Source: Lentisphaerota bacterium
GTDB lineage: Bacteria; Verrucomicrobiota; Lentisphaeria; Victivallales; UBA1829
Direction: 5' to 3'
Length of the DNA: 37,644 bases
Assembly: GCA_015061845.1 (NCBI GenBank)
Contig: SUVT01000016.1
Location: forward strand, 1-37,644
The stretch's first letter is position 1; every line of letters starts with the position of its first letter. Below the pieces are notes generated by a model. It searched no databases. It worked only from the letters and a program-made list of their open reading frames with translations, and was not told the origin of the DNA. This document shows positions 370-34,650 of the stretch, piece after piece. The position numbers were made by a program, and so were the translations under genes.

Positions 370-1857
370 TTATTTTGCAAGGAATTTCAGAATTTCATCA
401 GCGATCACTCTGCCGCCGAGAGGACTCAGGTGAACACCATCTGAAACATAAAGATCCTTGATGGAGGGTGCAGCCCGCATGACAGAGAGAATGTCGATGT
501 AAGGAATGTTATTGGCAGCGCAGAATTTTTTGTTTTCTGCGTGGTAGAGATCAACCAGATCTTTCTTTCCGTACATGACCATATTATTGGAAGGAGCCCA
601 TTTCTTTGCGCGATCCAGGAACAGCTGTTCATCGGAGGGAGAGGGCGCAATCATGATGATCTTTGCCTGAGGGAATTTGCTCTTGAGGATCTTGCAGATA
701 TTGGTCAGGCATTTCTGCTGCAATGCGGGCGGTGTTTCCTGTTTGGTGAAGTTGGTCTTACGGAACGATCTGGTGTCATTCTGTCCGAGGAACAGGAAGA
801 TGATATCAAACTTTTCATCGAAAAGCCCGTTGTACATATTCTGTCTGTACGCATAGTTTCTCTTGACCAGCGCACCGTTCAAGCGGTCTTCCATGCGTTT
901 GCAGAAGTCGCCGCCGACTCCGGCATTGCGGAAGGTGAATTTTCCGGGATTGTACTTGTTGACCCAGAAACTGATGCGGTCGATGTAGTTATAGCCGCGA
1001 TAGAAGTCGGAGAGAGAGTCTCCGAGGAAAAGAACTCTTACCGGTTTGGCAAGTTTGATTTTCTTTGCAGTATTGCTGGTTGCCTGATAGACATTTTCCG
1101 GCTGGACTTCTACATAGGCAAGGGCATTTTTTCCGTTATTGGAAGCTGAAATTTCCCAGAAGCCGGGTGTCAGCTTGTCAGTTGCAACAGAGATTTTTCC
1201 ATTGGAATCAGCTTTGACTTTCTGATAAGTGACATTGTTGCCGTTTTTCAGAGAAATGGTAAATTCCTGATTCTTGAGACTGGTTGAAAATGTGACTGCT
1301 TTGACCGGATTTTTGACAGAAGCCATCTGGATATCTTTATCAGACTTCACAGAACCGGATGCAGGAACAACTGTTTCCATGTGGAAAGATTCCACATAAA
1401 CTTTCCCGACACCCTGAACTTCAATGAAAGAAAGAAGTTTTTCAAACCGTTCATTCAGCTTGCAGGTGAATGTGAAAGTCTGGAACTCAGAGGTGAGATC
1501 TCTTGCTCCGTCACGGCAATAGTTGGGCTGACCTTTTCCGAAATGATAGGACAGTGCCCCGCAGGCAAGTTTCCCTTCGCCTTTTGCTTTGACAGTGATT
1601 TTAACAGTATCGCCGGGGAAATAATTGATATTTCTGTTGTAGCCCAACGCTCTGCCGAAAAGTTCGCTGCCCCGTTTGCCGGATTCCAGAAGAAGACAGT
1701 CTTTGCCGTCAACTTTTACTTTAGAGACTTTTCCAGCCCAGTAAGCCGGAGCGTTCCAGCCGCGGAGATTTTTTGCAAAAGTATCATTTTTCAGAACTTC
1801 TGCGGAAAGAGGCAGAATACATGCTGCAAGCAGCAATGATGTGATGAGATGTTTCAT
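370..1857 (-). CDS. Secreted SGNH/GDSL-type hydrolase with N-terminal binding-like domain
   Basis: A 495-residue protein with a signal peptide (MKHLITSLLLAACILPLSAE). Residues 20-165 look like a beta-sandwich carbohydrate-binding module and are followed by a short linker domain. The C-terminal half is an SGNH hydrolase: GDS at 279-281 (nucleophile S281), Gly313 in NAGVGG, GQND at 358-361 (N360), and DGVHLSP with D473 and H476. SGNH enzymes remove acyl or acetyl groups, and in a glycan operon a carbohydrate esterase is most likely; the substrate is unknown. The start at 1857 was chosen over an in-frame ATG 24 codons upstream because it begins the signal peptide and has an AAAGGA site. That site lies in the 3' end of the preceding gene (5-base gap), which suggests translational coupling. 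It is the last gene of the operon. Confidence 0.86.
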   Translation of the reverse strand: MKHLITSLLLAACILPLSAEVLKNDTFAKNLRGWNAPAYWAGKVSKVKVDGKDCLLLESGKRGSELFGRALGYNRNINYFPGDTVKITVKAKGEGKLACGALSYHFGKGQPNYCRDGARDLTSEFQTFTFTCKLNERFEKLLSFIEVQGVGKVYVESFHMETVVPASGSVKSDKDIQMASVKNPVKAVTFSTSLKNQEFTISLKNGNNVTYQKVKADSNGKISVATDKLTPGFWEISASNNGKNALAYVEVQPENVYQATSNTAKKIKLAKPVRVLFLGDSLSDFYRGYNYIDRISFWVNKYNPGKFTFRNAGVGGDFCKRMEDRLNGALVKRNYAYRQNMYNGLFDEKFDIIFLFLGQNDTRSFRKTNFTKQETPPALQQKCLTNICKILKSKFPQAKIIMIAPSPSDEQLFLDRAKKWAPSNNMVMYGKKDLVDLYHAENKKFCAANNIPYIDILSVMRAAPSIKDLYVSDGVHLSPLGGRVIADEILKFLAK

Positions 1858-1862
1858 TTGTT

Positions 1863-3893
1863 TTATCCTTTCTTCGGAATTTGAATTGCAAAATAGTGGA
1901 AGATGGAAAGATCTTTTGTGATCTTCCATTTTCCGTCATCCAGTTTGACCGCGATTTCCGTGAACGGACGGAGCTCTCCATCTTCCCGGAGATATTTTCC
2001 GTTTTCCGGATCCAATGCCTTGTCGGTAAAGGAGATGGTCAATTCATGGGCGATATCATAGGATGTATTGGTAAGCCCGATGAGGACATCTTTTCCGTTG
2101 TCGAAATACTGAACGGCGAAGCAGGTGGGATCTTCCACAAAAGCGGGAATCGCCATGGGATCCATCCAGTTCAGAATGTTCCGCATGAGCAGCTGTTTCT
2201 GATAGCTGATGAAGTGGCGCAGATCGTATGCGGCAGGTCCCACACGGAGAGCCATGACAGCGACTTTTCCGCCCAGTTTGTTTTCAAAGATGGTCATTGC
2301 CGGACAGATGGTTTCCAGATCGTGGTTTGTCAGTTCGGAAAGAACTTTTGCACCTTCCTGAACATCAACGATTTTCTGGACATCGCTCAGCGGAGTATCT
2401 TTCAGCGGGCCGTAAGTTCCGGCATATTCTCCGCAGTATTCCGGATCGGAGAAGTATTCTGCACCGAAGGGGACATTCATCTTTGCCGTGCTTGCTCCGG
2501 TGTATTCCAGAAGTCCGCGGTCCGCAAATGCTTTGGCTGCAACGGAATCAAGGATCAGATTTCCTTTGAGATAATCCATGAGCTGTTCATCGGAGAAGGA
2601 ATAAACACTGTCTCCGGCAAGGAATGTCACGGGGGATTTGTCGTAGGTCAGACAGAATCCGCTGTTGGCGAGGAAATCGTGGTGGGCGAAAGCCGGGAGA
2701 TAATAGTCAGAGATAGCGGAGTACATATTGGGTGTGTTCAATGCGGAACTCCGGTGATATCTCAAGCCGACTCCCTTTTTGGTGCCGCGTTCCGGAGCGA
2801 TTTTCCGCAATGCTTCAAAGTAGGGCTTTTCCCGTTTGAGCATTTTGGCGATTTCCGGTTCAAAGAACGGGCTGTTTCCCACATATCCGCAAGCAGAGAT
2901 CGCCGGGTTGAACATCCGGTTGATGATCCCCTGGGAGATGTGGAAACGGATGACTTCCATACTCTTTGAGAAGCGGGTAAAGGGAGTGGTTTCGATTTCC
3001 GGCGTGTATTCGGCAGAATCGCCCATGATGTGTCCAATGGTTTCCATGTAGAACAGCCCCGGTACGATCTGCTGACGGTCGCGGTCGCTGTAAGGTCCGA
3101 TACAGGGGCGCAGCAGAAGTTTGCCTTCAGGCTGGAAAATCCGTGCCATTTTCGGCAGATCATAGTCATAAAGCGTTGTGCAGTGGAGACAGGGAACCAT
3201 AACCCCGACCGTCATTTCCGGATTGACGCTGTGGACTGCATTGCTGATGACAGCCGCCAGCTCTTCCAACGGTTTTTTCAGGAACATGATCCACTGTTTC
3301 TGAACAGTTTTGTCATTGAGGATCGCTTTCTGAAGTTCCGGTCTTGTCCACTCTTTGCCCGTGAGTTTGGAAAACTCCGCAAGGTGCAGGTCGCACATGC
3401 AGCCCCAGGTGTTGTTCCGTCCGGCAAAAATATACCGGTGGTCATCGTCGATATAGATATATTCTGCATTGGTTGCGGCAAGGATCCGGTAGAACTCATC
3501 CAGATACACTTTCAGAGCGGGATCCAGCAGACACGGCGTGCGTTTATCACAAGTGCCGTCTGCCAGAGTTGCCCAGTGTTTGTACTGCGGATTATGTTCC
3601 GTGTGGTCGAACCGCGACATGAGCATGTTGTAGGAAGAGTTGATCCCCACTTTGATGCCGTGTTTGCCGAGATCTGCAATGGCGCGGCTGATATTTTCCG
3701 CTTCTTCCCGGGCTTCTTCGATGGTCAGCTGGTTCCAGACCATGTGCTGCGCATCGGTGAAGAGCATCACATGCTCCGTGCCGGTTTCTTTGCAGAATTT
3801 GATGATATCTGCAATGATTTTTTCATAGTTCCAACGGGGCAGATACATCCGCAGAACATAGTTGACCTGATTTTCAGGAAAAACTGTCTTCAT
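1863..3893 (-). CDS. Cytosolic TIM-barrel protein resembling GH42-like glycosidases
   Basis: A 676-residue protein without signal peptide or membrane segment. The N-terminal 350 residues have the beta-strand/helix rhythm of a TIM barrel. One strand ends in IYIDDDHRY (about 146-154), an acidic cluster where glycosidases place catalytic or metal-binding acids, and a Cys-rich WGCMCDLHL follows at 163-171. The rest contains a Rossmann-like region, such as the trimerisation domain of beta-galactosidases, and a C-terminal beta domain. The layout is like GH42-type enzymes, but no catalytic pair can be assigned with confidence. It may act on oligosaccharides imported after extracellular cleavage. The start has AAGGA 6 bases upstream. 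It lies 9 bases after the LamG-like gene and 5 bases before the SGNH gene. Confidence 0.6.
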   Translation of the reverse strand: MKTVFPENQVNYVLRMYLPRWNYEKIIADIIKFCKETGTEHVMLFTDAQHMVWNQLTIEEAREEAENISRAIADLGKHGIKVGINSSYNMLMSRFDHTEHNPQYKHWATLADGTCDKRTPCLLDPALKVYLDEFYRILAATNAEYIYIDDDHRYIFAGRNNTWGCMCDLHLAEFSKLTGKEWTRPELQKAILNDKTVQKQWIMFLKKPLEELAAVISNAVHSVNPEMTVGVMVPCLHCTTLYDYDLPKMARIFQPEGKLLLRPCIGPYSDRDRQQIVPGLFYMETIGHIMGDSAEYTPEIETTPFTRFSKSMEVIRFHISQGIINRMFNPAISACGYVGNSPFFEPEIAKMLKREKPYFEALRKIAPERGTKKGVGLRYHRSSALNTPNMYSAISDYYLPAFAHHDFLANSGFCLTYDKSPVTFLAGDSVYSFSDEQLMDYLKGNLILDSVAAKAFADRGLLEYTGASTAKMNVPFGAEYFSDPEYCGEYAGTYGPLKDTPLSDVQKIVDVQEGAKVLSELTNHDLETICPAMTIFENKLGGKVAVMALRVGPAAYDLRHFISYQKQLLMRNILNWMDPMAIPAFVEDPTCFAVQYFDNGKDVLIGLTNTSYDIAHELTISFTDKALDPENGKYLREDGELRPFTEIAVKLDDGKWKITKDLSIFHYFAIQIPKKG

Positions 3894-25217: not shown

Positions 25218-28200
25218 TTATTTTCTCTTAATCTGACACTTTCTTGATAAGCTCCAGGTTTTTACGTCTTTATCAGTAAAATGTTTTGGAATTGTGATGC
25301 TGGCAAGATTTTTACAACCCCAGAAAACGTTTTTTCCCATTCCCATTCCTCGTTCTTCGTTTTCTTTTACCTTTTCATCTTTAGGCTGAAGTCTGACACT
25401 TTCTGGAATTTCAATAGTTTTCAGACTTGAACAATAAGCGAATGCATACTCTTCAATGGTCTTTACTCCATAGAAAATGGTAATATTCTCCAGGCTTGAA
25501 CAAGCCTGGAATGCCTGCTTCCCTATTCTCCGGACTCCGGGCAAAACACGGAATTCTTTCAGTGCAGAACATCCGCCGAATGCTTTTTCGTCAATCAGAT
25601 CGACATCAGAAGGGTATGTCACCTTCCTGAGAGATTTGCAATAAAGGAAAGCTTCTTTGGGGATTGTTTTCAGTTTCGGGGGTAAGCTGATGCTTTCAAG
25701 CCCGCTTTCTGCAAAAGCAGATACTCCAATTTCTGTTACATCCATCGGTATTTCGATTTCTTTCAGCTTTTTACATCCCGTGAAAGCTCTTCCTCCAATT
25801 TTAGTGAGGCTGTCTCCAAAAACAACTTTTTGCAAATTGGAAAGCCCTGCAAAAAATCCAGCCGGTATTTCCTTTAACGCTCTCGGAAGTACTACGTATT
25901 CAAGAGATTTATTCCCGGATATGATATTATATGGCAGTTTTTCCAAAAAGTCAGGGAGTACGAGCTCTTTCAGACTGGTACAATTGGCAAATGCATTTAT
26001 TCCGATAGAATTGACCTTGTTATGCAATAAAAGTTTTTTCAGACCGGTACAGCCTTCCAGAAGTGAATGCGGAACTGTTGTTACTCCGGGAGGGAGAATA
26101 AACTCCTGCAGACTGGTACAGTTGGCAAAAGCTTTGCTTCCGATAGAATTGACCTTGTTATGCAATGAAAGTTTTTTCAGACCGGTACAGCCTTCCAGAA
26201 GTGAATGCGGAACTGTTGTTACTCCGGGAGGGAGAACGAACTCCTTCAGACTGGCACAACCGCTGAATACATTTCCTCCGATTTCTGCAATTTGATCATG
26301 CAGCGTAATTTTTTCAAGACCTGAACAACCAAAGAATACGCCATCTTGGATTTTTGTAACATTCTTCGGAATACGGATTTGTCTCAAACTTGAACAACCG
26401 GAGAATGCGTACTCGCCTATAGATTTCAGACATTGGCTTAATGGTATGGATTCAAGATTTTTACATCCGGCAAATGCTTCATCTCCAATTTCTGAAATGC
26501 CCTGCATCATAGTCGGAGCACTGATCACTACATTTTTGCCCTTAAAAAGGTCAAAATCAATGATAACTTCTTCCGATGCCGTTGAAATATCCTGTGCTGA
26601 TACCGGTGCCTTGATCACAACTCTTTTTCTTTCAAAAAGATTAAAATCAATAATGATCCAGTCGTAGGGAAGATCAATATTTTTAAGATTTGAACATCCA
26701 CTGAAAACACCATTGTTTATGACAGTAATTCCTTCCGGAATTTTGATGGATGTCAAGCCGGAACAATTTTCAAAAGCGTAATCTTCGATATCATAAAGAC
26801 GTTCCGGGAGAATAATTTCCTGTAATTTCCTGCAACCGTAAAAAGCTTCTTTCTGGATCGTTGACAGGTCTTCAGGAAGCGTGATTTTCTCAAGATTGGC
26901 ACAGCGGTTGAACGCGCTTTCGCTGATTTTAGAAACCCCTTCCGGAATTATGATTTCAGTAATGGCACTGCCCAGAAATGCAGCCTGTCCGATATCTGTT
27001 ACAGATTCAGGAAGCGTGATTTTTCTCAAGTTCCTGTTATACAAAAAGGCGCCTTCTCCGATCTTTACGAGACTGGATGGAAGCACAATCTCTTCCAGCC
27101 TGCTGCAGCCGGAAAACATATAATCATTCAGCGTGGTAATTTCTGTTTGGATGTCAACTTTCCGGAGAGATCTGCAATTCAGGAAAACGTAGTCCTCTAT
27201 TTTCATGATTCCCTTCGGGATTGTAATTTCCGTTAATGCTGTACAATTCAGGAACAGATACCGGCGCAATTGCTTTATTTCTGCCGGAATTTTGATGAAT
27301 GTCAATTTTCTGCAATTATAAAAAGTTCCGCTTCCAAGGGAAGTCATTTGTTCAGGCAGTTCGATTCGTACTAAACTCTGACAATTTGCAAATGTATATT
27401 TCTGAATCGTCTTGAGAGTTTTGGGGAGTTCCACCATTTTCAGTGAAGTACAATTATTGAAAGTATATGCCGGCAGGGTTTCGACCCCATCTTCAACTTT
27501 GAGATTTGTCAAAGCTAAACATCCATCAAAAACAGAGTGTCCTATTGTTAAACCTTTTGGAATAACAACAGATTTGAGTCCTGTTCTGGAAAAAGCTCCG
27601 GTATCCAGATTCTTTAATTTTTCCGGCAGATTTATATGAGAAAGATATTGGCATTGATAAAAAGCTCCTTCGCCTATGCTTGTTAAACCGGTCGGCAATT
27701 TGATCTTAGACAAATTCCTGCATCCCATAAAGGCTTCTTTTTCAATAACTTTTAATTTTTCAGGCAACGTGATCGCTCTTAAACCATGGGATTTGTTTCT
27801 TCTGGCAAAGTATTTTTCATGTTCCTGTATATATTTTTTCCTCGCATCTTCTTTTGAGACACTCTGCTGTCTTGGATTCCGCTGGTGGGTAGGTTTATAA
27901 CTCTCTTTTTGATATTCATATTCAAAAGAAGTTGAAGTTTTTTCTATTGAACCTTTCTTATTTTTGTCTCCTTTGTAATATTTGTTGAATTTGAATGATT
28001 CTTCTTCACGCCCTCCGTAATTGTTATAGGCGTAATCATTCTTATTCTCTTTTTCAATTACAAAAGCCTGTTTTCCGATTTTTTCAACCTTTCCTGGGAT
28101 GTTGATAACGGTCAAGTTCGGACAGTTTGCGAAAGAACGTGGTGCCACTTCTTTCAAGGCTTCCGGAAGTTTGACATTGCTCAGCGTTTCACAACCTTCA

Positions 28201-29828
28201 AAAACACTGTTTCCAAAGGTTTCGATGGTCGGAGGTAATACAATTTTCTGGAGTCTCAAACAGTCAAAAAATGCCTCATTCCCAATGCTGAGCAGGGTGT
28301 CGGGAAGATTAACTTTTGTCAAACTGTAACAGTCTGCAAAAACCCGGTCTCCAAGTTCTTTCAATCCTGTTTTTAATATTATTTCAGATAAGTTCTGACA
28401 ATCAAAGAACACTTCCTGACCAATAGATTCAACACCTGCCGGAATTTCGATTTTTTTCAGTGCATTGCATCCGCTGAATGCATTGGCTTCGATCTTTTTC
28501 AGACCTTTCTGTGCAAATTTAATAGTGTTTAATGCACTGCATTTTTCAAACATTCTCGCCCGGATAACTTCTGTTTTTTCGTGCAATGTTATCTTTTTCA
28601 AATTTCTGCATCCGGAAAAAACTCCAGCTCCGAAGTCTGTTTTGGAATCCGGGAAATTCAGGTACTCTATCCCTGCGCAGGAAGCATAAGCATAATCACC
28701 GATTTTTATGTTGAGAACAAGACTTTCTGTTGTCAAAGAACTGCATCCATAGAAAGCATAGGCCTTGACCTCTTTTATCCCGGAAGGCAGCTTTATTTTT
28801 TTCAAATTTGTACATCCATAGAAGACTCTTTCGTTAATAACTTTTATGCTTTCCGGAAGTGTAAGATTCAGAAGACATGTGCAATTGGCAAAAGCTTCGC
28901 CCTCAATTTCTGTAACACTCTCCGGAATATTGACATCCACCAGCAATTTACAGCCGGAAAATGTTTTCTTTCTGATAATTGATAATTTTTTGGGAAGAGA
29001 AGCCTTCTGCATACTGGAACAATTTTCAAACGCTGCGATCCCAATGTTTTGAACCGTATCTGGAATTTGAACTTCCGGTAATTTTATACATCCGGCAAAG
29101 GCATAATCTGCAATGTTGATAATGTCTTCCGGAACAGTGTAAACGCTTCCGATACTCCGGGGAACATAGAGCAATGTTTTACTCTTGATTTCTATCAATT
29201 CACCAGATTTACCAAGTTTAAAGAACTCATTCTTGCCAGTAAGTACGACTTTTCTGACTTTATTCAAACTTCCGGGAGTGATTTTCCTGACGGACTCCGG
29301 AATATGCAGTTCCAGAACATCTTTTTGAACAGAACCCGGTTTTATATCAATTGCTCTGATGGTGTTGTCAATAACAAAAACTTTCTGCTCTTGATCTTTA
29401 AAATCGAATCCAACAACTTCGCCGGAATCCAGAAAAAATCCTTTTCCAGGCTCTTTTGTATAATTTTCGGCTGCCTCAGGCTCTTGCTGCGGAACAGGTT
29501 GTCCCTGTTCCTGTTGAGAAGTTTGAGCCGGAGCTTGTGCAGGAGCCGCAGCGGTTTTCTTATCATCTTTTTCTTCTTTATCATCGCCGCCGGTCATTTT
29601 CCAGCCGACGATGATCGCAACGATGATACCCACCAGAATCAGGATATTTTTAACAACACCAAAGTCAATTCCGGAAGACTTCTTGCCTTTTTTTCCGGAT
29701 TTTCCAGCCTTTCCGGATTTCGGTTTTGTGATCGTAAAGGTATTACCACAGTCACATTCAGCAACTTCACCGATCATATCTTCAGTGACATCATATTCCT
29801 GTTTACAGGCAGGGCAACGTATAATCAT
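25218..29828 (-). CDS. Giant BspA-like leucine-rich-repeat protein with zinc ribbon and membrane anchor
   Basis: A 1536-residue protein. Residues 1-37 form a zinc ribbon (CPAC at 5-8, CDC at 25-27), then a Lys/Gly-rich linker, one membrane helix (about 58-76, VVKNILILVGIIVAIIVGW), and a Gln/Ala/Pro/Glu-rich spacer. From about 165 to the end are dozens of 23-residue BspA/TpLRR (LRR_5) repeats of the form 'aF.gC.sL.ki.lP..v..Ig'. Positive residues before the helix predict the zinc ribbon in the cytosol and the repeats outside. A charged segment (about 588-679) interrupts the repeats. BspA-type repeats mediate adhesion or surface protein contacts. The gene is more AT-rich than its neighbours. 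The ribosome site AGGAG is 11 bases from the ATG. The family call is secure; the ligand is unknown. Confidence 0.9.
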   Translation of the reverse strand: MIIRCPACKQEYDVTEDMIGEVAECDCGNTFTITKPKSGKAGKSGKKGKKSSGIDFGVVKNILILVGIIVAIIVGWKMTGGDDKEEKDDKKTAAAPAQAPAQTSQQEQGQPVPQQEPEAAENYTKEPGKGFFLDSGEVVGFDFKDQEQKVFVIDNTIRAIDIKPGSVQKDVLELHIPESVRKITPGSLNKVRKVVLTGKNEFFKLGKSGELIEIKSKTLLYVPRSIGSVYTVPEDIINIADYAFAGCIKLPEVQIPDTVQNIGIAAFENCSSMQKASLPKKLSIIRKKTFSGCKLLVDVNIPESVTEIEGEAFANCTCLLNLTLPESIKVINERVFYGCTNLKKIKLPSGIKEVKAYAFYGCSSLTTESLVLNIKIGDYAYASCAGIEYLNFPDSKTDFGAGVFSGCRNLKKITLHEKTEVIRARMFEKCSALNTIKFAQKGLKKIEANAFSGCNALKKIEIPAGVESIGQEVFFDCQNLSEIILKTGLKELGDRVFADCYSLTKVNLPDTLLSIGNEAFFDCLRLQKIVLPPTIETFGNSVFEGCETLSNVKLPEALKEVAPRSFANCPNLTVINIPGKVEKIGKQAFVIEKENKNDYAYNNYGGREEESFKFNKYYKGDKNKKGSIEKTSTSFEYEYQKESYKPTHQRNPRQQSVSKEDARKKYIQEHEKYFARRNKSHGLRAITLPEKLKVIEKEAFMGCRNLSKIKLPTGLTSIGEGAFYQCQYLSHINLPEKLKNLDTGAFSRTGLKSVVIPKGLTIGHSVFDGCLALTNLKVEDGVETLPAYTFNNCTSLKMVELPKTLKTIQKYTFANCQSLVRIELPEQMTSLGSGTFYNCRKLTFIKIPAEIKQLRRYLFLNCTALTEITIPKGIMKIEDYVFLNCRSLRKVDIQTEITTLNDYMFSGCSRLEEIVLPSSLVKIGEGAFLYNRNLRKITLPESVTDIGQAAFLGSAITEIIIPEGVSKISESAFNRCANLEKITLPEDLSTIQKEAFYGCRKLQEIILPERLYDIEDYAFENCSGLTSIKIPEGITVINNGVFSGCSNLKNIDLPYDWIIIDFNLFERKRVVIKAPVSAQDISTASEEVIIDFDLFKGKNVVISAPTMMQGISEIGDEAFAGCKNLESIPLSQCLKSIGEYAFSGCSSLRQIRIPKNVTKIQDGVFFGCSGLEKITLHDQIAEIGGNVFSGCASLKEFVLPPGVTTVPHSLLEGCTGLKKLSLHNKVNSIGSKAFANCTSLQEFILPPGVTTVPHSLLEGCTGLKKLLLHNKVNSIGINAFANCTSLKELVLPDFLEKLPYNIISGNKSLEYVVLPRALKEIPAGFFAGLSNLQKVVFGDSLTKIGGRAFTGCKKLKEIEIPMDVTEIGVSAFAESGLESISLPPKLKTIPKEAFLYCKSLRKVTYPSDVDLIDEKAFGGCSALKEFRVLPGVRRIGKQAFQACSSLENITIFYGVKTIEEYAFAYCSSLKTIEIPESVRLQPKDEKVKENEERGMGMGKNVFWGCKNLASITIPKHFTDKDVKTWSLSRKCQIKRK
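25971..26246 (-). repeat. Near-identical 138-bp tandem duplication inside the LRR gene
   Basis: Units 25971-26108 and 26109-26246 differ at only about ten positions by eye and include a stretch of roughly 70 identical bases. Each unit encodes two 23-residue repeats (46 residues). The high DNA identity, in contrast to the divergent other repeats, points to a recent duplication or gene-conversion event. Confidence 0.88.
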
Positions 29829-31205: not shown

Positions 31206-32000
31206 ATGTCAAATCATCCTTTTTTTATCATTTCCACTGATGCCCGGGAGTCTTTTGATATTGCCATGATAGAGTGCTGTTTTTCCGATGTGGATAACTG
31301 GATCTACCCGGAAGCCGTCTTTTCCTGCTGGATCTTCTACTGGAATCCGGAGCCGGGGGCTGAAATCATTTTCAATGGAAAAAAGATCTCTTTGAACGCT
31401 GATACCTGTATTCTCATTCCGCCTTATACAAAATTCTCCACTGAAAGTACCCGGAAATTCCGTCAGTTCTATCTTCACTTCATGGTTCCCGAACCATTTG
31501 ACCGTGTCCGACGGAAAGTTTTTTCTTTTGCCGCAGAGACGATCCGTTCCCGGGTGGATGGAATTCTGAATTGTTCCGATGAAAACCGCCGTGCGCTGCT
31601 TTTGCGTTCTCTGATCTACAGTTATCTGGCTGAAATCCCCGAAAAGGATTTTCTGGAACCGGAAGAACAGATCATGAGCCCCGGGATCCGGAAAGCGGTG
31701 GAGAGCATCAACCGGAATTTACAGCAGCCGCTTTCCAACAGTGAACTTTGCCGGAAAGCCGGTATGAGCAGAAATCTCTTCTATGAAATGTTCGGAAAAG
31801 AGATGGGCATGTCCCCCGGAAGGTATCTTCTGAACGTCCGGATGGAATATGCAAGAAGAAAATTGATTTATTCCGATGAAACCATTGACGAGATTGCCAC
31901 AGGCAGCGGTTATGCTGACCGTTTTCATTTTTCCAAAGCATTCAAGAAATTTTATGGATTTCCCCCCGGAAGTTACCGCCGCCCGGTGAAAAAAATTTAA
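31206..32000 (+). CDS. AraC-family transcriptional regulator
   Basis: About 264 residues. The N-terminal part is a cupin-like effector domain (ISLNADTCILIPPYTKFSTE, KFRQFYLHFMV). The C-terminal 100 residues hold two helix-turn-helix units typical of AraC/XylS: LSNSELCRKAGMSRNLFYEM, then EMGMSPGRYLLNVRMEYARR, and ETIDEIATGSGYADRFHFSK followed by AFKKFYGFPPGSYR. Such proteins usually activate sugar-use genes on ligand binding. The frame stays open far upstream, but that part is antisense to 30060-31079. The start was set at 31206 because of AGGA 12 bases upstream; an in-frame ATG at 31185 (7 residues longer) is possible. It probably regulates the divergent TIM-barrel gene and perhaps the related DUF4838 operon. 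Confidence 0.87.
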   Translation: MSNHPFFIISTDARESFDIAMIECCFSDVDNWIYPEAVFSCWIFYWNPEPGAEIIFNGKKISLNADTCILIPPYTKFSTESTRKFRQFYLHFMVPEPFDRVRRKVFSFAAETIRSRVDGILNCSDENRRALLLRSLIYSYLAEIPEKDFLEPEEQIMSPGIRKAVESINRNLQQPLSNSELCRKAGMSRNLFYEMFGKEMGMSPGRYLLNVRMEYARRKLIYSDETIDEIATGSGYADRFHFSKAFKKFYGFPPGSYRRPVKKI

Positions 32001-32091: not shown

Positions 32092-32132
32092 TTGAAAATG
32101 GAAAAATTTGGATTATATTGGAACAAAATGGA
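32092..32132 (+). promoter_or_regulatory. mraZ promoter overlapped by four MraZ-type TGGA repeats
   Basis: TTGAAA (32092-32097) and TATATT (32114-32119) with a 16-base spacer form the promoter. Four TGGA motifs, each followed by A or T, lie at 32099, 32109, 32119 and 32129, exactly 10 bp apart. Known MraZ sites are TGGGN-like motifs repeated with 5-base spacers (10-bp period) upstream of mraZ. Here the array spans the spacer, the -10 box and the start site, as expected for autorepression. A fifth TGGA at 32147 touches the start codon out of register. Confidence 0.82.
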
Positions 32133-32149
32133 AAAAACAGGTTGTTTGG

Positions 32150-32620
32150 ATGCTTACTTTCTGCGGAATAGATTATTGCTCCATGGATTCCAACGGCAGA
32201 GTGAAACTCAGCCCGAAGATACTGGAGGATTTTACTTCCAAGGGTGTCGATGTTGTATTGCATTGTCTGCCTGAGGGAGCCGTTGCCGTGTACCCGGAAG
32301 AGACGTATCTCAAGATCCGTCAGGAACGGGAAGTCACGGAAAACAGAGCAGCAAGCAGTTTTACCGGACGGCAGATGCTCCGGCGTTCCGGAGCGTGGTC
32401 ACAGTCTCAGCGGATCTCCGCACAGGGACGGATCACTTTGCCGCAGGCGTTCAGGGAACATGCCGGTTTCGGTTCCGGAAGCCAGAAAATGGTGGTGGTC
32501 GGCGTTGAGATCGGAGTGGAACTCTGGACACTGGAACGCTGGGAAGCCGAACGGAAGCGTATGGAAGAACATGACAATCTGAAACGTGATCAGGAAATGC
32601 AGGCTGATCTGAATTTCTGA
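32150..32620 (+). CDS. mraZ: MraZ-family transcriptional repressor of the division/cell-wall cluster
   Basis: A 156-residue protein with two SpoVT/AbrB-like MraZ repeats: FCGIDYCSMDSNGRVKLSPK near the N-terminus and SQRISAQGRITLPQAFREHA in the second half, followed by KMVVVGVEIGVELWTLERWE. This 'D..GR..LP..R...' doublet is unique to MraZ, which forms ring-like oligomers and binds tandem motifs before the dcw cluster. The start at 32150 was chosen because MraZ proteins begin a few residues before the first repeat and because the TGGA array and promoter end just upstream. It is followed 19 bases later by a small membrane protein gene; rsmH, the usual next gene, is absent. Confidence 0.9.
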   Translation: MLTFCGIDYCSMDSNGRVKLSPKILEDFTSKGVDVVLHCLPEGAVAVYPEETYLKIRQEREVTENRAASSFTGRQMLRRSGAWSQSQRISAQGRITLPQAFREHAGFGSGSQKMVVVGVEIGVELWTLERWEAERKRMEEHDNLKRDQEMQADLNF

Positions 32621-32639: not shown

Positions 32640-32909
32640 ATGGTAAAAACAGGAAAAATCGTAAAGTATTTGATCTGCCTCTTTGCAGCGGCAGCTGTCC
32701 TGTTGCTTGCCGGCGGAGCAAAAATGATGCTCAGCGCAGATTCCCACAGTATTGCAGCCGAAAAAGTCAAAGAGGCTGCCACCTTTTATATTTCTGCTGC
32801 AGAAAAAGGTGATGAACTCCGCGAACTGGCGGAAGATTCCCCGGAATTTCTCCTTTATGCAGCATCCAGCTCCGAACTCAAAACGCTTGAAGCGGGTACT
32901 CTTGAATAA
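32640..32909 (+). CDS. Small bitopic membrane protein in the FtsL position
   Basis: An 89-residue protein with a short cytosolic N-terminus (MVKTGKIVK), one membrane helix (about 9-28, YLICLFAAAAVLLLAGGAKM) and a 60-residue periplasmic tail rich in Ala, Glu and Leu that may form an amphipathic helix or coiled coil (AAEKVKEAATFYISAAEKGD). Size, topology and location between mraZ and a PBP-like gene match FtsL, which is poorly conserved in sequence. The assignment is by position and topology only. AGGGAA precedes the ATG. The stop codon overlaps the next start (TAATG), so translation is coupled. Confidence 0.7.
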   Translation: MVKTGKIVKYLICLFAAAAVLLLAGGAKMMLSADSHSIAAEKVKEAATFYISAAEKGDELRELAEDSPEFLLYAASSSELKTLEAGTLE

Positions 32910-33490
32910 TGGAAGAGCCTGACGGCCAATCTTTCCGGAAACGAAGCGGCTGGATCATTATTGCAGTTTTGATCTGGACGGCTCTCTGTTTCGGCAGCGT
33001 TGTTTATTTTTCGATCTTCAAACGGAAAGAATATCAGAAAATCTCTCTTGAAACTGCCTGGAGACAAGGGAAAATCCCTGCGTTGCGCGGTTCGATTTAT
33101 GCCTCAGATGGTACAGTGCTGGCTTCTTCCAAACTGGAATTCTTTCTTTTCTGGAAAAATGATAAAGCGAAATCTGCGGCAGAGAGAATCTTCGGGCGTT
33201 CCCTGACTAACGGTTCTGAAATCTCCGGAAAAGAGATATCGCTTCTCAGGGAAGTTTTTCAGGAGCATCCATCGGAAATCTGGGTGGAGACCCGGGAACG
33301 GCGCACAAGTACCCCCGGGTTGGAACACATTGAAAAGAAATATGATTCCGTTCTGAAAGGAGAAGACGGTCTTTTTGTTGTGATGCATGACCGCTATGGC
33401 AGAAAGGTTCCTGGTTCGCTGAAAATTATCCGGAAACAGGTGCCCGGACGTTCTGTGACGTTGGCTCCGGGTGAGGAGAAGTCGGAATGA
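32909..33490 (+). CDS. Class B PBP-like pedestal protein lacking the transpeptidase domain
   Basis: A 193-residue protein with a membrane helix (about 14-36) and a periplasmic part that follows the non-catalytic region of FtsI/PBP2: ALRGSIYASDGTVLASS (58-74; the RG.I.DR.G..LA motif), a short middle, then GLEHIEKKYDSVLKGEDG (137-154) and VVMHDRYGRKVPGS. The last two are the blocks that end the pedestal in class B PBPs. It stops at PGRSVTLAPGEE, where PBPs continue into 'LTID..lQ' and the transpeptidase with SxxK, SxN and KTG; none of these is present. The ATGA overlap with the SEDS gene excludes a hidden downstream domain. It probably partners and activates the SEDS enzyme, without crosslinking activity. 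Confidence 0.8.
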   Translation: MEEPDGQSFRKRSGWIIIAVLIWTALCFGSVVYFSIFKRKEYQKISLETAWRQGKIPALRGSIYASDGTVLASSKLEFFLFWKNDKAKSAAERIFGRSLTNGSEISGKEISLLREVFQEHPSEIWVETRERRTSTPGLEHIEKKYDSVLKGEDGLFVVMHDRYGRKVPGSLKIIRKQVPGRSVTLAPGEEKSE

Positions 33491-34650
33491 ATGAACGGAG
33501 AAAAATTTTTGGAAATCTTCTGATCGGCTTGCTGGTGATCGGACTTGGCGGGTGTGCCGCAGTTTATTGTGCAAGAGCCTATGGCGTGAATCCATGGTAC
33601 TTCGCTGGGAAACAGATGATTTGGCTGGCAATCGGAACGCTGCTTTTTTTATTGATTGCCCATACTCCTTTTGCCAAGTTGAAAAAAGCTGCCTTCCCTG
33701 CAATGATCATCTTTCTGATCGTTCTGATTCTGACCGCATTTTTCGGGACAAAGGTCAATAACATGAGCGGCTGGATTCAGATTCCCTTTACCAAGATCCG
33801 GATCCAGCCTTCTGAACTTGCAAAACCGGTCTATCTGCTCTCTCTCTGTCTGCTTGTAACACAGGAAAAATGGAGTGAATGGAAGCGGTTCGCAGCGGCA
33901 TTTTGTCTGACAGCAGCATTTTGTATTCTGATTCTGATACAGCCTGACTTCGGAACTGCTACGGTTTATGCCGCAGCTTTGCCTTTTCTGCTCTTCTGCG
34001 CAGGATTCCGGACACGTTATATTCTTTCCGTGTTATTCGGCTGGATCCCGCCGACAGTTCTTTTTGTTCTTCTTCATCCTTATGCGCTGCGGCGTATCAA
34101 TGCATTTCTCTCTCCGGCAGATGACCAGCTCGGAGCAGCCTGGCACATCAACCAGTTTCGTATCACCATGGCAAACGGCGGCTGGTTCGGAGCAGATGGA
34201 AACAATGTGACCTGGGCAAATGCTTATCTTCCGTATTCTCACAGTGACTCAGTTTTTGCGACACTGATTGAGGCTTCCGGCTTGATCGGCGGAACTCTTG
34301 TGCTGCTCGGTTTCTGTGTGATGATCATTCTGTTCCGGAAAGCGGCTCTTGATACCAGAGAAAAAGATGCCCGGCTTGTGATTTTCTGTGCCGGGCTTAT
34401 GCTGATAACGCAGGCATTCCTGCATATCGGGGTAAATGTAACGATCATTCCTCCGACAGGTTTGCCATTGCCGTTTTTCTCATACGGCGGCAGCAACCTT
34501 GCCGGAGTGATGCTCCTGCTGGGAACAGCCTGTTCCGCTTACAGGAGCGGTTCTTCAGAATCCCAGATTGATTCCAAGACTGTGAAGGAAGACAAAGAAG
34601 ATAATGACCGGAGCGAAGAACCGTGTCAGGATCGCCCACAATGTGGTTAA
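33487..34650 (+). CDS. SEDS-family peptidoglycan glycosyltransferase (FtsW/RodA-like)
   Basis: A 387-residue polytopic membrane protein with about 9-10 helices. SEDS hallmarks: GWIQIPFTKIRIQPSELAK (95-113), LIQPDFGTA (151-158), GGWFGADGNNV (231-241), the catalytic-loop LPYSHSDSVFA (248-258) whose D254 aligns with the essential Asp of FtsW/RodA, and PTGLPLPFFSYGGSNL (323-338). These enzymes polymerise lipid II into glycan strands in partnership with a class B PBP. The start overlaps the pedestal-protein stop (ATGA). The hydrophilic C-terminal tail overlaps the convergent symporter gene by 96 bases. By position after mraZ it is probably the FtsW-type paralogue; FtsW and RodA cannot be separated by eye. 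Confidence 0.93.
   Translation: MNERRKIFGNLLIGLLVIGLGGCAAVYCARAYGVNPWYFAGKQMIWLAIGTLLFLLIAHTPFAKLKKAAFPAMIIFLIVLILTAFFGTKVNNMSGWIQIPFTKIRIQPSELAKPVYLLSLCLLVTQEKWSEWKRFAAAFCLTAAFCILILIQPDFGTATVYAAALPFLLFCAGFRTRYILSVLFGWIPPTVLFVLLHPYALRRINAFLSPADDQLGAAWHINQFRITMANGGWFGADGNNVTWANAYLPYSHSDSVFATLIEASGLIGGTLVLLGFCVMIILFRKAALDTREKDARLVIFCAGLMLITQAFLHIGVNVTIIPPTGLPLPFFSYGGSNLAGVMLLLGTACSAYRSGSSESQIDSKTVKEDKEDNDRSEEPCQDRPQCG

Follow-up and report, generated by a model that had tools for sequence, protein, structure and literature searches.

The window, a 37,644-nucleotide stretch of DNA from a Lentisphaerota bacterium, carries on its forward strand a gene of the MraZ family (32150–32620, 156 aa), here termed type B, preceded by a promoter. 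A promoter scan identifies this promoter as sigma70-like, with a −35 hexamer TTGAAA (32092–32097), a 16-nt spacer and a −10 hexamer TATATT (32114–32119), giving 10/12 matches. The sequence-only reading had reported four copies of TGGA over this region, and they start exactly where it placed them, at 32099, 32109, 32119 and 32129, in 10-bp steps. They head four predicted operator boxes on the same strand: box 1, TGGAAAAATT (32099–32108); box 2, TGGATTATAT (32109–32118), whose spacer holds the −10; box 3, TGGAACAAAA (32119–32128); and box 4, TGGAAAAAAC (32129–32138). All four boxes are predicted from the sequence and from its alignment with type B promoters, 104 of which were aligned. Box 1 lies directly 3′ of the −35, box 3 opens with the T that ends the −10, and boxes 3 and 4 span the expected transcription start, which is predicted from the −10 position to lie near 32126; the proposed cover of the −10 and start site agrees with these positions. 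A fifth TGGA (32147–32150, forward strand) is likewise present and out of phase as claimed, overlapping the start codon (TGG-ATG). Only 3 of 109 relatives have a counterpart, all three from the window's own GTDB family, and for this reason the fifth copy is probably accidental; as an unconserved motif it was rejected as a genuine box.

Three further genes follow on the forward strand. The first encodes a small single-TM membrane protein (32640–32909, 89 aa) with no Pfam match; the second a PBP-like protein (32909–33490, 193 aa) with the dimerisation domain only (PF03717, no PF00905); and the third a SEDS protein of the RodA/FtsW family (33487–34650, 387 aa, PF01098), the third copy in the genome. 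Most type B mraZ genes are followed by a small one-TM protein of about 70–110 aa, with a conserved tail W...NPxLLL and no match to any Pfam family; in family f4 the position is occupied by a small CxxC protein instead. The dimerisation-only PBP-like gene followed by a SEDS gene recurs across many of the families but is rare in f8, and the same pairing was seen at 1660–3540 of locus L144, as at 32909–34650 of the window. It also occurs on the complete chromosome of strain WC36, so the missing transpeptidase domain is not the product of an assembly break. Three SEDS genes are present in the window's genome and its two full transpeptidase genes lie elsewhere, so that the operon contributes an extra SEDS protein whose partner has no cross-linking domain; this transpeptidase-less PBP could act as an activator-only partner of the third SEDS enzyme. 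On the reverse strand of the window, at 25218–29828, lies a gene for a 1536-aa protein whose sequence reads as an apparent long run of BspA-like leucine-rich repeats, together with a CxxC stretch at the N terminus and a single hydrophobic segment.

A second MraZ paralogue in Lentisphaeria

Descriptions of MraZ usually present a single conserved regulator that heads the dcw cluster. The window gene is instead a second, divergent MraZ paralogue and not the canonical mraZ of its genome. The canonical gene, termed type A, lies on another contig (C164) with rsmH directly after it and with AGGGG boxes at 10-bp steps, which identifies the window gene as the additional copy. The window's type B gene has no rsmH or other dcw genes beside it, and small TM, PBP-like and SEDS genes come next. 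The type B protein belongs to the Pfam MraZ family (PF02381, 54.9 bits against a cut-off of 23), but it falls below the cut-offs of both NCBIfam equivalog models (31.8 bits against 98.35 for TIGR00242; 36.4 against 162 for NF001476). The description of this region as an mraZ promoter is therefore right in that an MraZ-family gene lies downstream, although the canonical mraZ–rsmH pair, with its AGGGG boxes, is elsewhere.

A search of the PDB with the type B sequence alone gave nothing useful, and a fold search succeeded. The AlphaFold monomer model (pLDDT 82) has the two-domain MraZ fold, and its best Foldseek matches are all MraZ structures, with query TM scores of 0.63–0.75 and E values down to 4.7e-9. 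The significant matches are exclusively MraZ structures, both crystal structures and MraZ–promoter cryo-EM complexes. Among the latter, the model matched protein chains of 9r4j and 9sz7, complexes of Mycoplasma genitalium MraZ, of which 9sz7, by its description, contains a promoter with four boxes, like the four TGGA boxes here; the sequence identity to these proteins is 16–18% and the box sequence differs. Type B MraZ probably forms a ring, an oligomeric state which we infer.

Of 198 Lentisphaeria genomes, at least 110, spanning about 20 GTDB families, carry type B genes called at E below 1e-15. Named matches come from Lentisphaeria, Victivallales and related Lentisphaerae MAGs, with one labelled Verrucomicrobia, and from the complete WC36 chromosome. 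Outside the class, type B was not seen in a sample of 388 genomes from the phylum: the best E value was 6e-10, and matches at this level or worse are weak matches to canonical MraZ, which rules out a wider spread within that sample. A tree built from 203 MraZ proteins places type B and type A each on one side of a branch, with SH-aLRT support of 98 and 97. The branches are long and the rooting of this tree is uncertain, so B may, but need not, have arisen from A by duplication within the class.

Conservation and uniqueness of the box array

Upstream sequences were compared for 109 type B genes, 72 type A genes from the class and 20 MraZ genes from other Verrucomicrobiota (the outgroup). At least two TGGA motifs at period 10 precede 100/109 type B genes, one of the 72 type A genes and none of the outgroup; at least three are found in 72 and at least four in 52 of the 109 type B promoters, and none of these counts are independent, because the rows are related and mostly from metagenome assemblies. 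In shuffled sequence, phased TGGA occurred at rates of 1.1% (at least two) and zero (at least three and at least four). The other groups have cores of their own, since phased AGG[GT]G occurs in 45/72 type A promoters (0/109 type B, 0/20 outgroup) and phased GTGG in 14/20 of the outgroup (0/72 type A); type B, with phased GTGG in 0/109, is without the GTG(GG) core. With looser cores in the same phase, AGG[G/T] is found in 60/72 type A promoters and TGG[A/T] in 106/109 of type B, so that conservation, the absence of which the sequence-only reading had named as refuting its proposal, is very strong. Periods other than 10 yielded about zero, except that 8/72 type A promoters have AGG[GT]G phased at 11 bp. 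The E. coli mraZ promoter, as a positive control, gave TGGG at 292, 302 and 312 of its sequence (L327), again in 10-bp steps. The proposed description of TGGA as a lineage-specific variant of the operator core needs qualifying: TGGA does replace TGGG, but the variation is also paralogue-specific.

Alignment of the 104 type B promoters gives an operator of four TGGAA-N-AAAA units, laid out as in the window. A TTG[A/C/T] motif lies 7–8 nt 5′ of box 1 in about 80 of them, and the −10 most commonly starts 15 nt after box 1, an offset shared with the window by 51 promoters. The boxes of WC36 read TGGT in the same phase, and at one locus (L161) the four-box array lies about 105–110 bp 5′ of the type B start codon, compared with about 60 otherwise, leaving a longer leader. 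The A-rich spacers and a period that fits the helix would also suit a promoter bent by phased A-tracts, in which no protein is dedicated to reading TGG. Such bending is, however, a very improbable explanation, given that TGG is 94–100% conserved while spacer positions reach about 45–88%, and that type A and outgroup promoters hold the period and change the core, always before an MraZ gene.

Chance can be dismissed as the origin of the array on the strength of the shuffles, the other periods and the conservation. In none of 20,000 dinucleotide shuffles of the 130 bases 5′ of the gene did the number of phased TGGA motifs reach three; for the three-box pattern with up to one mismatch, 0.32 matches are expected in the window, which contains two overlapping exact ones. 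The whole 3.2-Mb genome has three matches to TGGA-N6-TGGA-N6-TGG, two of them in the array at 32099 and the third, with GC-rich spacers, in an unrelated place; the array is thus single in the genome. A genome-wide TGGA regulon was also rejected, as additional three-box matches in sixteen relatives are scattered and for the most part GC-rich in their spacers; none of the sixteen showed a second AT-rich array of four boxes. Separately, three genomes (G068, G069 and G070) contain TGGAC-type three-box repeats by the hundred, spaced 10 bp apart and present on both strands (152 and 166 matches, for example, against 0 in the reversed control); these are apparently a dispersed repeat and not MraZ sites.

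A gene of the AraC family stands in tandem upstream of the array, ending at 32000, and a regulator encoded there might be supposed to use the boxes. In the relatives examined this gene is absent near type B mraZ, apart from one weak match, while the array is retained. AraC sites are not known to take the form of short direct repeats with a 10-bp period like these. The AraC-family gene was accordingly set aside as unconserved beside the array, and use of the boxes by this or some other regulator is extremely improbable.

Box recognition and a candidate second MraZ circuit

At dcw promoters MraZ acts as a repressor (PMC8475190, PMC7761207). Its repeat in Mycoplasma is (AAAGTGKN3)3 (PMC5282649), and in the Burkholderia operator four repeats of 7 nt, separated by 3 nt, lie across the start site (PMC7761207). 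The type B array has the architecture that had been claimed for it, namely four direct repeats that recur every 10 bp, cover the −10 and start and stand before an MraZ-family gene. In this it resembles the dcw operators of E. coli, Mollicutes and Burkholderia, with their three to four direct repeats of the same period at the promoter or start before mraZ; it also exceeds the minimum of three such repeats used to recognise an MraZ operator. It differs from them in three respects: its core is TGGA(A) without GTG, a core said to be conserved among distant bacteria (PMC7761207); its boxes begin right past the −35 and not past the −10; and the genes it is predicted to control are not the dcw cluster. 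Compared with type A of the same genomes, the family, the period and the upstream placement of the boxes are the same, whereas type A has rsmH next, AGGGG/AGGTG boxes and glutamine in the first-domain loop, and type B has TGGA boxes, asparagine in that loop and serine or threonine for the second-domain aspartate.

These residues belong to the D-x-x-x-R loops, which bind DNA in MraZ. In type B the aspartate and arginine of the domain 1 loop are 100% conserved, as is the arginine of domain 2, where the aspartate, invariant in the outgroup and type A, has become S/T. The position two residues before the first-domain arginine, which corresponds to E. coli K13 (and the arginine to the essential R15), is K in 20/20 outgroup proteins, Q in 72/72 of type A and N in 90% of type B. 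The residue two positions past the arginine is T in the outgroup, A in type A and either K or R in type B. The three box types thus coincide with three residue types, and also with three clades; since both follow the clades, the match could be a coincidence of descent, and it is a strong lead rather than proof. A single loop residue is not the whole code, because type B proteins with S, A or D in place of N keep TGGA, and two outgroup proteins with K (L262 and L263) have TGGA-like boxes. Together with L258, these are single canonical MraZ genes of one other Verrucomicrobiota family, with AATGGAA- or AGTGGAG-like boxes and loop K, which indicates that the box can drift without a change of residue.

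The array, its overlap with the promoter, its conservation, the paralogy, the disjoint box types and the residue differences are all read from sequence, and from them we infer binding, repression and orthogonality. Very probably, the TGGA boxes are an autoregulatory operator of type B MraZ, separate from canonical MraZ. In this mechanism type B MraZ would lie on a single face of the DNA, touching every box from immediately after the −35 to beyond the start, and when bound would block RNA polymerase. It would thereby repress its own operon of mraZ-B, the small membrane protein, the transpeptidase-less PBP and the SEDS protein, while the canonical MraZ of the same cell would read AGGGG boxes at the dcw cluster. 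The two regulators would be kept apart by their different boxes, matched by the changed loop residues; loss of the GTG core in different ways in the two Lentisphaeria paralogues would serve to separate the circuits.

Type A MraZ might instead bind the TGGA array, or both proteins might cross-bind both operators, such that the dcw cluster and the type B operon are co-regulated. The 10-bp architecture and a GG core are common to both operators, and Mycoplasma MraZ tolerates a related repeat in vitro (PMC5282649). Yet phased TGGA is almost absent from type A promoters, which have AGG[GT], with the reverse in type B, and both paralogues have diverged from the canonical loop K in different directions; binding by type A alone or by both proteins is unlikely. 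Orthogonality of binding by the two paralogues may nevertheless be incomplete, because the related repeat bound by Mycoplasma MraZ had other spacing and no regulation accompanied it in vivo (PMC5282649).

There is a bolder reading, for and against which the balance is about even: a natural orthogonal MraZ pair, in which K to Q or N and neighbouring loop changes would rewrite GTGG to AGGG or TGGA, the second pair running a separate cell-wall operon with a third SEDS protein, a transpeptidase-less PBP and a new small membrane protein. A second copy across the class with its own operator means that MraZ has been duplicated and its specificity probably changed. The more than 100 natural type B variants provide a ready set for working out how MraZ reads DNA, and the type B locus draws attention to an unstudied cell-wall operon under separate control.
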